From Thiocapsa marina 5811 (lineage in GTDB: Bacteria > Pseudomonadota > Gammaproteobacteria > Chromatiales > Chromatiaceae): a DNA stretch of 64,000 nucleotides. Under the pieces are notes generated by a model, which searched no databases, was not told the origin of the DNA, and saw nothing but the letters and a program-made list of their open reading frames with translations. Made by a program: the position numbers and the translations under genes. This document shows positions 53,750 to 63,710 of the stretch, one piece after another. Within the stretch, counting starts at the first letter, position 1. Each line of letters opens with the position of its first letter. Location of the stretch: contig NZ_AFWV01000001.1 of assembly GCF_000223985.1 (NCBI RefSeq), forward strand, positions 310,001 to 374,000, written 5' to 3'.

Positions 53750-56700
53750 CTATTTGAGTCCGATCCTTTCGATCCCATCGCGCGCCGGGCCGGCCGAACA
53801 GGCGCGGTTGCGCCCGCAGCGCTCGGTCAAGAGCAGGGGCAGCGGATCGTCCGGCGCAAGGTCTCGACAGCGCCCGAAGGTGCGCGTGGCCTGGTCGTCG
53901 TCGCCGGCCCGGTAGAGGCGAAGCCCGTCGGACAATGCCTCCCGGGTTCGCAGCTTCTGCTCCCGCAGGGGCTCGGGATCTGCATCGAAGACCTCGTAAA
54001 GACGCACCGGGGCCTCGCGACCGGCCACGGTGACGAGATCGATCTCCCGGATCAGGTAGCGCTCGGGATCGTCGAGCGACGCATAGGTGTTGCCCCCGAT
54101 CAGCAGACCCAATCCGTAGTGTTTGGTCAGGCCCTCGATGCGGGCGGCCAGGTTGACGGTGTCGCCGACCACGCCGCATTTGAGGCGGTTGGCGGCGCCG
54201 ATGGTGCCGAAGATCATCTCGCCGGTGGCGATGCCCACACCGATGCGGATCGGCGACTGGCCCTGCAGATCCGGGGTCCGTGCCCAGTCCCCGAGACTGC
54301 GCAACATGGCGATGCCGGCACGTATGGACGCATCGGCGCCGCGATCGAACACCGCCATGATGGCGTCGCCGACATAGTTGTCGATGAATCCGCCCTCGGC
54401 CAGAACCGCAGGCTCCATCCGCGAGAGATAGGTGTTGATGAACTGGATGGCGTCCACGGGCGCCATGCCCTCGAGGAGCGAGGTGAAGCCGCGGATATCC
54501 GAGAAGAGGATGGATGCCTTGGTCAGGACGTGGTCGCCCAGCTTGATATCTCCGATGGACGGACGTCCCAGGGTTTCGAGGAACTGGTGCGGGACGAAGC
54601 GGGCGTGGGCGAAGGTCAGCTCGGCTTGGCGCTCCAACGAGCTGCGCAGCGAGTCGTAGAGACGGGCGTTCTCGATGGAGACGGCCGCTTGTGCCCCCAA
54701 GGTCTCCACCGTGACGCACCGATCCGCCGAGAAGGCCCCGCGCACGCCGGCATTCTCGAGATAGACCATCCCGACCACGTCGCCCTTCGACAAAAGCGGA
54801 ACGCAGAGAATCGACAAGGCAGCGTGCGCACGGATGTGCGGATCGGATCGAAAGGTCGGATCCGCACAGGCGTCGTCCATCACCACCCGCTCCCGGGCGC
54901 GCCGAACAAAGCTCACCAACCCGGTCGGTATCCCGTGAAGGTCGACCGCCGAACCGTCGGGCAGGAGCCGCACTTCGCCATTGGCATCGCCCACGGCCGC
55001 GACCTGTAAGCGGTTCTCGACATCGAGCAGCAAGACGCCGCGGGTCGCACCGGCGTTGATCACCATGGCACGCATGACCTCGGTCACCACGTCGTTGAGC
55101 GAGACCTTGCGGGCCAGTGCCGCGGCGGCACGGATGAGGGTTGCGCTGTCGACGATCTGTCCGTGACCGCTGCTGCTCGTGCCCGTCTCGGTCAGGTCGG
55201 TCAGCACGCCGGTGCGCGGCTGGACCAGATCGGCGTAGCGCTCGGTCAGAACCTTGGACCAGGCGTTCGCACCCCAGACATCGAAGGCATCGACGGCATC
55301 ACAGAGATAACCCGCCGCCGCCGTGCGGGCTCCTCGACCAAGATAGAAGCGCGCCGCCCGCTCCAGAAACAAGCCGACATCCTGCAGGGCGCCGGCCCGC
55401 CGAGCCGCCGCCACGGCTGCGTCGAAGAGCTCCATCGCGCGGGTCGATCGACCGTCGGCCGCGGCCAACTCGGCCCGCAACAGCAATGCCCGATGGGCGA
55501 AGTTGTCGGGGCCGTAGCGGGCCCAGCGCTCGAGCCGACGCGTGAGCCGCCACGCGCGGGTCCGCCGTATCACCGATGTTGCAGCGCCGTCGCTCCCACC
55601 CAGCTCGATCAGCGCCAGGGCCTCGTAGAACTGGTAGAAGGGCTCGAACGCCATCGAGACAATGCCGTTCAGATTCGCCCGCATGCCGTGTGCCCGCGCG
55701 AGTACCTCGCGAAAATCTTCGCGCATCAGGGCATCGAGCATCCGATACTTGTGGAAATAGGCGAGCGAGGTGGCGTCACGCTGCTCCGTCCAAACGGCGA
55801 AGCTCTCGTCTTCGCTCTCCCGCTCGTCGTCGGAGCGATCCGCCACATCCTCCAGACCCCGCATGCGCGCGATGCTGAAACCCGCCATCCGCATGATCCG
55901 CCGCGTCTTTTCGTGGCGCGCGCCACCCTCCGCGGCCTGATGACTCTCGAGATAATCCGACACCTTCGCCAGCGGCAGCCCCCCCATGAAGGCGTAGGAG
56001 GCATGTCCGTAATGATGGTAGCCGTGATGCTCCAGGTCACCGGCGCTGATCGCCTTCTCGGCCCCTTCCAGAAAGATCGGAAGGGTCTCGACCAAGGGGG
56101 CCGACCAGTGCTGGATGAAGCCCGCATAGATCATGAGAATACGGCCTTCGAGATCGCGTGCATCCAGGTCGACGGCGAGCTGCCGTGCCAGATCACCGTA
56201 GGCCAGGCCACGCACGGGATCCGCCAAGACGGCGCAATGGAGCATGCCGTAGAGGACATAGGCGTAGGCGGACTCAGGCGCATTGCCGTAGCGAACCGAC
56301 ATCTGAACCATGCGCAGCGCGATCAAAGGCAGCAGATTGGGCGCGCTGAAATAGGCCGGCGGCGCCAGCAGGACCATGATCTGCATGGCGGCAAGCTTAC
56401 GCGGATCCTGCATCCGAGGCCCCTCCGCCAGGTCAAGAGTGGTGCGGCCCGCGAGACGCAGCTTGGCGCTTGCAAGCTCCGCCAGGACCCGAAGCAGATG
56501 CACCCGACGGGGCAGCTTCTCGCCGAGCAGCGCCAGCGCACGCAGACCGACATCGAGCGCCCTGCCGTAGGCCATCCGGGAGGTATGCAGCAAGACCATC
56601 AGCCCCAGCACCCGGACCTGGTCCAGCGCCGGGCGCCCGCGGCCGAGCAGGCCCTCGGCGATCTCCTCGGCGAGGTCGGTGCGATCCTGCAGATAGGCCG

Positions 56701-62132: not shown

Positions 62133-63710
62133 TCACCAGCGCTCCGGCAGTTTGCGGTGAATGACGACGCGCTTGCCTTCGAGCGCGATGTAGCCGCCGG
62201 CCTTCAGATCCTTGAGGATTCGGCTGATCATCTCGCGGGAGGCGCCGACCAGTGCGGCGAGATCGCGTTGGGTGAGCGAGTCGGTGATGAGGCGACCGTT
62301 CTCCTCGACGGCGCGCCCCTGGAGCGTATCCGCAAGACGGCTGTAGACATCGCGTAGGGCGAGGCGCTCGACCTCCTCGGTCAGCTTTCTCACCCGTGCG
62401 GCCAGCGCACCGATCAGATGCAGCGCAACGCCGGGGCGCGAGATCAGAAATGCCTGAAACGCCGCCTTCGGAATGACGAGGAAACGCGACGGCGTGACGG
62501 TCATCACGGATGCCGAGCGCGTGGAATCCTCGATCAGGGCGAGCTCGCCGAGATAATCCCCTGGACCGAGCTCGTTGAGCACGATCTCCTTGCCGTTGTC
62601 GTCGGCGGAGAAGACCTTCACCCGGCCCGAGAGCAAGACATAGAGGGCGCTGGCCTCGTCGCCCTTCTGCATCACCACCGTGTTGGCGCGATAGGTCCGC
62701 ATTGCGGCCTGATCGATGAGGTCGCCGATACGATCGATCCCGAGCTCCGCAAATAGCGGGATCTGCAACAGAATGTCGCGTGTTTCTTGGTTCATCATCG
62801 CTCTTTCCTGCATTCGGCCCGACAGTGCCTCGACAACGGATCGCCGCAGACGATTGAAATTCGGCTCGAAGAAGCCGGAGACCAAGAATCCCCCGGATTG
62901 TTGATCCAGAAAGGCCAGCTTCTCCGCCGGACCGACATCACGCCCTCCATTCTCTCGGACCAGACGCTGTTGACACAACATGCCGTAATCGTCGGTCAAG
63001 GCGACCGAGGGCAGCAAATCGGCCTCCGCAAGCACCACCGCCTCCACGGCCAGATCCGGGTCGGTCGCGAGACGTCGCAGCAGACTCGCCTCGCCCGCCC
63101 CGTCCGGCGGAGCCTCGGGCGGCGGGCCCGCAAGATGTAGGAAACGAAAACAGGAACGCGCATAGGGCACACCCGCCCTCACCTCGGTGGCAAGGACGAT
63201 CGCGCCGATTCGCTCGATCTCCTCGGGCGCAACGCCGGCTCGCGCGAGAAAAGGCCCCGCCGCGGCAATCGCTAAACGCTCCAAGCGGAAGGACTCACCG
63301 TCATTGGTGGTGCCGTCGTGACGAAAATCATGCACGAGCGCGGCGACCACGACCCGCGCCAAACGCTCGCCCGAAAGACCTGCCTGCTGCCCGAGGAACA
63401 GACTGCAGAGAACGACCTCGCAGATGTGCTGGCTGTTGTGATACGCATTGTGCACTTGTCCCGCAACCCCGCGATCGATCTCGGCGGCGATGCAGGCACC
63501 GGCCGTGACCAATGGGTCACGCGGATCGAGCCCAAGCCTGGCTCCAACGGCCTCGAAGACCTCGGTAGTCGGCCGATCGAGCGCGTCGACCGCCCGAAAA
63601 CAGGCCACGATCTGATCCGCGACGACGCCGGGCGAGGCCGACGGCGGCAAGACGAAGGGCGCTTTCGAGACGTCGGGAAAGAGGGCCTTCGTCGCACCGG
63701 GCGCCGTCAC
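62133..63710 (-). CDS. Class I cyclic-nucleotide phosphodiesterase fused to CRP/FNR regulator
   Basis: A 525-residue protein (GTG start). Residues about 30-290 are a PDE catalytic domain of the animal-type class I: YHNSQHICEV (His91, His95) and the signature HDX2HX4N as HDFRHDGTTN (127-136), then AEADLLPS. Residues about 305-525 are a CRP/FNR protein: cNMP-binding fold with GDYLGELALIEDSTRSASVM and a helix-turn-helix DLAALVGASREMISRILKDLKAGGYI. An internal MMNQETRD at 305 could also start a free CRP. It would hydrolyse and sense the same messenger. It lies 194 bases upstream of the lipoxygenase gene, same strand. Confidence 0.88.
   Translation of the reverse strand: MTAPGATKALFPDVSKAPFVLPPSASPGVVADQIVACFRAVDALDRPTTEVFEAVGARLGLDPRDPLVTAGACIAAEIDRGVAGQVHNAYHNSQHICEVVLCSLFLGQQAGLSGERLARVVVAALVHDFRHDGTTNDGESFRLERLAIAAAGPFLARAGVAPEEIERIGAIVLATEVRAGVPYARSCFRFLHLAGPPPEAPPDGAGEASLLRRLATDPDLAVEAVVLAEADLLPSVALTDDYGMLCQQRLVRENGGRDVGPAEKLAFLDQQSGGFLVSGFFEPNFNRLRRSVVEALSGRMQERAMMNQETRDILLQIPLFAELGIDRIGDLIDQAAMRTYRANTVVMQKGDEASALYVLLSGRVKVFSADDNGKEIVLNELGPGDYLGELALIEDSTRSASVMTVTPSRFLVIPKAAFQAFLISRPGVALHLIGALAARVRKLTEEVERLALRDVYSRLADTLQGRAVEENGRLITDSLTQRDLAALVGASREMISRILKDLKAGGYIALEGKRVVIHRKLPERW

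Follow-up and report, generated by a model that had tools for sequence, protein, structure and literature searches.

A lipoxygenase gene coupled to a giant kinase/STAND/GAF/cyclase sensor in Thiocapsa: a candidate module for sensing lipid oxidation

Why does a lipoxygenase gene of a purple sulfur bacterium lie between two genes of cyclic-nucleotide signalling? This question is raised by a locus of Thiocapsa marina 5811, which we studied in a stretch of 64,000 nucleotides (the window; contig NZ_AFWV01000001.1, positions 310,001 to 374,000), part of a 547,790-base contig of the 5.6 Mb genome. Three genes on the minus strand encode, in this order, a protein combining a class I phosphodiesterase (PDE) with a CRP-type regulator, a fusion of a catalase-related domain with a lipoxygenase, and a giant sensor ending in a class III nucleotidyl cyclase. 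A sequence-only reading of this DNA had described these open reading frames with their strand, order and domains, as well as a 4-base overlap joining the lipoxygenase and sensor genes; the list of open reading frames and the Pfam and PDB searches agree with it on every one of these points. Judged by comparison of genomes, the evolutionarily kept core appears to be the lipoxygenase-sensor pair, to which exchangeable outputs (a class III cyclase, a diguanylate cyclase or a histidine kinase) are attached. The main features, in window coordinates, are as follows.

62133..63710, minus strand: PDE-CRP gene, 525 amino acids (aa); class I PDE-like region at about residues 30-300, cyclic-nucleotide-binding domain 338-422, Crp helix-turn-helix (HTH) domain 458-518
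63303..63449, minus strand: PDE metal-site motifs, NAYHNSQH (residues 88-95) and HDFRHDGTTN (127-136)
59050..61938, minus strand: gene of the fusion between a catalase-related domain, similar to coral allene oxide synthase (cAOS), and a lipoxygenase, 962 aa
60913..61848, minus strand: cAOS-like domain, residues 31-342, matching PDB entries 1u5u/3dy5
60931..60948, minus strand: site where catalases have R-x-x-x-Y; the sequence is RLAGWW (residues 331-336), without the axial Tyr
59053..60552, minus strand: lipoxygenase catalytic domain, residues 463-962, with H654, H659, H839 and N843, and Thr at the C-terminus
59050..59053, minus strand: ATGA, the 4 bases in which the end of the lipoxygenase gene and the beginning of the sensor gene overlap; conserved in all five Thiocapsa carriers
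53750..59053, minus strand: giant sensor gene, 1767 aa; Ser/Thr kinase 21-262, AAA_16 STAND ATPase 290-479, TPR-like middle, GAF 1319-1460, class III cyclase 1512-1680
54014..54520, minus strand: class III nucleotidyl cyclase domain, with N and G at the two purine-site specificity positions and alignments to 2w01, 6fht and 3r5g

The lipoxygenase part of the fusion is recognised by the Pfam profile PF00305 with 221.9 bits against a cut-off of 23.6, and aligns with the coral cAOS-lipoxygenase structure across about 500 residues. The four iron-site side chains listed above are invariant. The C-terminal residue, expected to be Ile, is Thr in all five Thiocapsa copies and Ile in the copies of two further genera (G056; G197 and G205), and other bacterial lipoxygenases compared have Val, Ala, Ser, Thr or Asn as their last residue. 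The fifth protein ligand of the lipoxygenase iron is the terminal carboxylate, not the Ile side chain, and the Thiocapsa protein retains this carboxylate. Because of this ligand, and because ends other than Ile recur in bacterial lipoxygenases, lipoxygenase activity is still expected of the Thiocapsa protein. The Coffa site, located by position, is occupied by Ala (N-T-S-A697-R), which would weakly predict an S product. Separately, a divergent lipoxygenase group (L059, L086, L087 and L110) was observed to end in SPWN or PWN, not in Ile, and the L059 gene adjoins genes of MacB/FtsX-type proteins.

The catalase-like part has no Pfam match, yet residues 31-342 (312 residues) align with the coral allene oxide synthase entries at E values of about 1e-47 (2.8e-48 to 1u5u). 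The distal His is kept, within the motif MSHENG. The axial Tyr of R-x-x-x-Y is absent in all eight Chromatiaceae copies, which have RLAGW, RLAGR, RLAAI or RKLDI in its place, and is present in the three control relatives (cAOS, a Sinorhizobium (S. fredii) plasmid homologue and the G989 homologue). Because this residue is missing from every Chromatiaceae copy, the domain is unlikely to be a haem enzyme of the classical kind. A functional allene oxide synthase was rejected on the same loss, and this part should not be taken for an active haem enzyme of oxylipin processing. A hydrophobic stretch at about residues 20-40 lies ahead of the fold of the fusion. An AlphaFold model of the fusion, made from a four-row alignment, reached a pLDDT of 30.9 and was too poor for a fold search.

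In the 1767-aa sensor, Pfam recognises a protein kinase with an intact HRD motif, AAA_16, GAF and Guanylate_cyc domains, and the middle part is a long helical-repeat region. The order kinase-AAA_16-TPR-GAF is that of the kinase-AAA-TPR-GAF-histidine kinase layout of cyanobacteria and others, which we take to be the one named HstK-type, and the Thiocapsa protein is 30-33% identical over about 1460 residues to copies of this type in the genome G491. The C-terminal histidine kinase is absent from the Thiocapsa sensor and a class III cyclase stands in its place. This cyclase keeps the two metal-binding Asp residues and the transition-state Asn and Arg, as seen in FSDI, GDAIMAVF and GDTVNLAARIEG when aligned with 2w01 and 3r5g. 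The purine-site pair is Asn/Gly in Thiocapsa and Glu/Thr in G056, and the Thiocapsa pair holds neither the canonical adenylate Lys nor the guanylate Glu determinant. With these residues, the messenger may be either cyclic AMP (cAMP) or cyclic GMP (cGMP).

The 525-aa protein matches the Pfam families cNMP_binding, Crp HTH and, weakly, PDEase_I. In a genome search across five genomes, PF00233 narrowly passed its cut-off of 24.8 (25.0-29.4 bits), and hmmscan of the window copy gave 23.2 bits, just under it. The PDB matches to a profile of the five PDE orthologues were almost exclusively class I PDEs, the best being PDE1B at 4e-5, over an alignment limited to residues ~84-138. The class I PDE metal site (HN-x-x-H, HD and a downstream Asp) is present, NAYHNSQH and HDFRHDGTTN being invariant in the five genomes, with a third motif, EAD (residues 229-231), downstream; the class I assignment was made because this metal-site region matches. 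The regulator part has the characters of a nucleotide-binding member of the CRP/FNR family, namely a cNMP domain with a GEL..RS motif and a Crp HTH. An AlphaFold model of the whole chain (pLDDT 41.5, four-row alignment) was too poor for a fold search. In Thiocapsa sp. KS1 an in-frame TAA stands exactly between the PDE and CRP parts and is followed by ATG (L031:8329-9906), so that the two parts are separate genes there. A search for PF00233 gave matches in the five Thiocapsa carriers but none in the nine further genomes it covered, and the PDE part thus seems restricted to the genus. Since the PDE part was found only in Thiocapsa and is a gene of its own in KS1, the three-gene set appears to be a local elaboration of the wider lipoxygenase-sensor pair.

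The CRP part can be followed beyond Thiocapsa independently of any lipoxygenase. Among its closest stand-alone relatives in nine other genera, a class III cyclase gene directly adjoins the CRP gene in four (G019, G078, G022 and G017), and in a probable fifth genus (G062) some 0.7 kb separates a cyclase gene from the region that matches CRP. This adjacency supports the view that the CRP subfamily reads the product of a class III cyclase. The cyclases observed next to this subfamily in several genera measure 652-740 aa (L132, L133, L136 and L137).

Within Thiocapsa, a co-occurrence test set beforehand supports the functional link that had been claimed for the three genes. The fusion, the full-length PDE-CRP and the full sensor are carried by the same 5 of 11 genomes, and orthologues of all three are jointly missing from the remaining six. 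Two of these non-carriers have a sensor paralogue of 31-33% identity without a cyclase, one gives partial or broken-up matches, and the others show nothing beyond generic kinase or cyclase similarity. The order fadL-PDE-CRP-fusion-sensor-hypF is kept in all five carriers, as is the 4-base overlap. A contig scan with a single protein query gave matches only in Thiocapsa relatives, and the orthologue-bearing contigs include those of Thiocapsa roseopersicina DSM 217, Thiocapsa sp. S07.Bin152 and Thiocapsa sp. KS1.

The functional link gains further from the recurrence of the lipoxygenase-sensor pair, with different output domains, in other families. The genomes compared were partly drafts, and at most loci neighbours were called by similarity to the query sensors, not by full annotation. 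Lipoxygenases are rare, occurring in 10 of 210 genomes of the family, 6 of 369 of the class and 4 of 398 of the phylum (the last count by the fusion profile). In a second genus of the Chromatiaceae (G056, an 8.7-kb contig), the lipoxygenase stop lies 3 nucleotides before a sensor that is likewise a 1767-aa kinase-AAA-GAF-cyclase protein; identity to the Thiocapsa proteins is 35-40%, that of the sensor 35-37%, and the cAOS-like protein is encoded by a separate, adjacent and convergent gene. In a third genus (G197/G205), where a non-orthologous cyclase takes the place of the sensor, a catalase-lipoxygenase fusion gene is convergent with an operon encoding a PAS-GGDEF-EAL protein and a SAM-cyclase-AAA-TPR protein, the latter being the sole class III cyclase detected in the G205 genome. 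The same scaffold recurs in two other gammaproteobacterial groups. Four genomes of family f33 (G491, G1294, G1298 and G1299) have a kinase-AAA-TPR-GAF sensor within a few genes of the lipoxygenase; the output of the G491 sensor is a histidine kinase with a receiver, and the C-termini of the G1294 and G1298 sensors read alike. In the groups g394/g577 (G923, G1248 and G1203), the lipoxygenase gene stands beside that of a sensor of about 1700 residues, which is a kinase-AAA-TPR-GAF-GGDEF protein by Pfam in G923 and matches it by similarity in the other two. In three genomes of g528, again with a non-orthologous cyclase, a GGDEF protein is encoded 16-48 bp after the lipoxygenase (7TMR-DISM-GGDEF in the one tested), and in G1040 the lipoxygenase is followed by a CHASE-PAS-histidine-kinase and then a receiver-GGDEF protein. 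A row of this kind was seen at L109:2613-8470, where the lipoxygenase gene precedes those of a 1639-aa CHASE-PAS-histidine kinase-receiver-Hpt protein and a receiver-GGDEF protein.

Where present, the sensor scaffold has one or two copies per genome, and class III cyclases number one to three. The sensor lies within two genes of the lipoxygenase in four of five lineages, for which random gene placement gives a chance of about 7e-12, a rough estimate that assumes 0.95 gene per kb and covers those five lineages in which both genes occur and the copies of the sensor were counted. In the lipoxygenase tree the clades involved are separate and well supported, with deep branches unresolved. Within two of these clades the neighbouring cyclases differ between members, being non-orthologous, and share the same chemistry, class III in Chromatiaceae and GGDEF in g394/g577/g528, a pattern difficult to account for unless the link is under selection.

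Haem proteins were also seen beside lipoxygenases. At the f33 loci a further gene runs into, or directly adjoins, the start of the lipoxygenase gene; in the copies tested, those of G491, G1294 and G1299, its product is a RoxA-like cytochrome c. RoxA-like genes were observed beside the lipoxygenase at L119, L115 and L118 of f33 and at L057, which would give it a second oxidising protein, with haem, for a partner. Elsewhere the neighbours are a cytochrome P450 (L106:7568-9019), an animal-type haem peroxidase (L058:75-2984) and a catalase-like protein (L107:10972-12234). A haem partner beside the lipoxygenase thus looks like a rule with swapped families. The S. fredii plasmid pNGR234a (L131:1892-6771) encodes consecutively a catalase, a catalase-like frame, a di-heme cytochrome c peroxidase and a patatin-like phospholipase, a row that looks like an oxylipin-type cluster without a lipoxygenase.

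Two neighbouring genes had been missed by the sequence-only reading.

51211..53778, minus strand: hypF, 855 aa, overlapping the 3' end of the sensor gene
63711..64000, strandless: part of the divergent intergenic region toward fadL (FadL/OMPP1/TodX, PF03349)

The hydrogenase maturation gene hypF is read in the direction of the sensor gene and shares 29 bases with it in this genome; an overlap is present in all five Thiocapsa carriers. It was rejected as a member of the system, the G056 locus being without it, and is probably a mere neighbour. The fadL gene, with an open frame from 63991 on the plus strand and a conserved start at about 64102, past the window edge, is divergent from PDE-CRP in all five carriers and encodes an outer-membrane long-chain fatty-acid porin.

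What could be established from sequence is the genes, their domains, order and conservation, the recurrence of the pair, and the position of the CRP subfamily beside class III cyclases elsewhere. The reading that we favour, at about even credence, is a lipid-oxidation sensing module in which the lipoxygenase would oxidise a fatty acid and its neighbour, the sensor, would relay this event as a nucleotide signal for the CRP part to read. A long-chain, probably polyunsaturated, fatty acid, plausibly imported via the neighbouring FadL, would be dioxygenated by the lipoxygenase. The co-translated kinase-STAND-TPR-GAF sensor would then detect the product, or the lipid-peroxide state, and activate its own C-terminal class III cyclase, raising the level of cyclic nucleotide. 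The CRP part of the upstream PDE-CRP would read this nucleotide. The signal would be ended by the PDE part, which shares a chain with CRP except in KS1, where it has a gene of its own. That the genes of the locus are functionally tied we regard as highly probable; that information flows specifically from lipoxygenase to sensor seems to us evenly balanced.

Several points weigh against this reading. We infer that the lipoxygenase product is the sensor's ligand, as we do the supply by FadL, the identity of the nucleotide, the CRP targets and the direction of information flow. We know of no purple sulfur bacterium that makes polyunsaturated fatty acids. The kinase of the G056 sensor (L043:1527-6830) is degenerate, with HLG for HRD, and is a probable pseudokinase in an otherwise conserved sensor. 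A palindrome search for the CRP-type site TGTGA-N6-TCACA found none conserved across the five genomes in the PDE-CRP/lipoxygenase region, which is down to 41 bp in one of them, or in the fadL/PDE-CRP region; the CRP action once suggested at 61939-62132 and 63711-64000 thus received no backing from either. In g394/g577 the lipoxygenase and sensor genes are convergent and hence not one operon. No giant-sensor or cyclase gene was recognisable near the lipoxygenase in G192, G1295, G970, G989, G1066, G1173 and G770, or near the plasmid lipoxygenases of Pseudomonas, Rhodococcus, Pantoea and Nostoc, and neither was found next to the plasmid-borne lipoxygenases of Acaryochloris and Nostoc, so that the pairing is frequent, not universal. 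Finally, the sensor tree, in which long branches were flagged, does not unite all lipoxygenase-linked sensors.

The main competitor, which we consider unlikely, reverses the flow: the sensor would read another cue (light, redox, O2 or exogenous fatty acid), and the cyclic nucleotide and CRP would switch on genes of fatty-acid handling, fadL and the lipoxygenase among them, the latter being an output that, for example, detoxifies or uses polyunsaturated fatty acids from algal or cyanobacterial debris. Pathway genes often adjoin their regulator, as the constant divergence of fadL from PDE-CRP would illustrate, and the convergent placement in g394/g577 fits a co-regulation less tied to dose. However, the 4-bp overlap, present in all five carriers and nearly kept in G056, ties translation of the sensor to that of the enzyme, no CRP site was seen where such a switch would act, at fadL/PDE-CRP or upstream of the lipoxygenase, and it is the lipoxygenase partner that stays constant while output domains swap.

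Considerably less probable is that the fusion acts mainly as a fatty-acid-binding partner, a pseudoenzyme or an enzyme of slow turnover in contact with the sensor, with no diffusible oxylipin involved. The loss of the axial haem Tyr with the distal His remaining, the change of the terminal Ile to Thr in Thiocapsa and the hydrophobic N-terminal stretch are in its favour, whereas the invariant iron ligands, the retained carboxylate, the recurrence of non-Ile ends and the Ile kept in G056, G197 and G205 speak for a working enzyme. That independent genes travel together as a genomic island, with common cyclases as chance neighbours, is very improbable and strongly disfavoured: the carriers are close kin of 88-92% identity, and shared order alone could be inheritance, but sensors and class III cyclases are few per genome and the pairing recurs at about 30-40% identity in different gene orientations, and chance neighbours were rejected on the random-placement probability given above.

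The proposed sensing of oxidised lipids joins elements that are already known separately, namely fusions of catalase and lipoxygenase, HstK-like sensors, kinase/cyclase fusions that neighbour biosynthetic genes, routes from cGMP to CRP, and quorum sensing by oxylipins. The cAOS-lipoxygenase of the coral Plexaura homomalla (3dy5, 1u5u) and the catalase-lipoxygenases of Anabaena and Acaryochloris have the same two-domain order as the Thiocapsa fusion, and linoleate-type acids are the reported substrates of the cyanobacterial enzymes (PMC11719350). The Thiocapsa copy differs in having no axial Tyr, in its C-terminal Thr and in its link to a sensor and cyclase. With HstK-type sensors the N-terminal scaffold is shared, and the lipoxygenase-linked G491 sensor has exactly the HstK layout, whereas Thiocapsa and G056 have a class III cyclase, and g394/g577 a GGDEF domain, where the histidine kinase would stand. 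The TOMM kinase/cyclase fusions (TIGR03903) likewise combine kinase, cyclase and AAA/TPR parts in one chain, and sit beside a small-molecule biosynthesis gene; the Thiocapsa sensor scores 126.3 bits against a cut-off of 705.75 for this family, its domain order is another, and it is paired with a lipoxygenase instead of an enzyme that modifies peptides. In the oxylipin-dependent quorum sensing (ODS) of Pseudomonas aeruginosa, an oxidised fatty acid serves as a signal coupled to its own production locus (PMC6377657). That system has diol synthase enzymes and a LysR receptor, without lipoxygenase or cyclic nucleotide, and neither a diol-synthase-type oxygenase nor a LysR receptor was found at the Thiocapsa locus. 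As for the cGMP-CRP routes, we know of none in which a PDE is fused to CRP. In those of R. centenum (CgrA) and X. campestris (XC_0249/XC_0250), which are without a lipoxygenase, a class III cyclase gene is linked to, or acts via, a nucleotide-binding regulator (PMC4681086, PMC3770947).

Kurakin and co-workers, as cited in a 2024 review (PMC11011848), proposed on statistical and phylogenetic grounds that bacterial lipoxygenases act in cell-cell signalling and multicellularity. The enzyme family and the signalling hypothesis are the same as here, whereas the account of that proposal available to us names no receptor or messenger gene partner, and the review describes the hypothesis as without definitive confirmation. 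In the open-access literature, most subscription papers lying outside this scope, no report was found that connects a lipoxygenase with a gene for a sensor or a second messenger.

The lipoxygenase-sensor pairing suggests a little-known bacterial way of sensing oxidised lipids. We tentatively propose, with somewhat less than even confidence, that gammaproteobacterial lipoxygenases may be the input stage of an unrecognised class of lipid-oxidation sensing systems, in which a core of lipoxygenase, a haem partner in some cases, and a kinase/STAND/GAF protein would be mounted on the messenger of each lineage (cAMP or cGMP, cyclic di-GMP, or a phosphorelay), Thiocapsa having a self-contained version that makes, reads and destroys its signal. 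For the role of bacterial lipoxygenases and the sensing of their products, the conserved pairing offers a concrete candidate receptor and several candidate messengers, in a system carried by the named strains T. roseopersicina DSM 217 and Thiocapsa sp. KS1. The swap of outputs beside a constant lipoxygenase would be a natural experiment on STAND-GAF sensors re-plugged between cAMP/cGMP, cyclic di-GMP and phosphorelay signalling.

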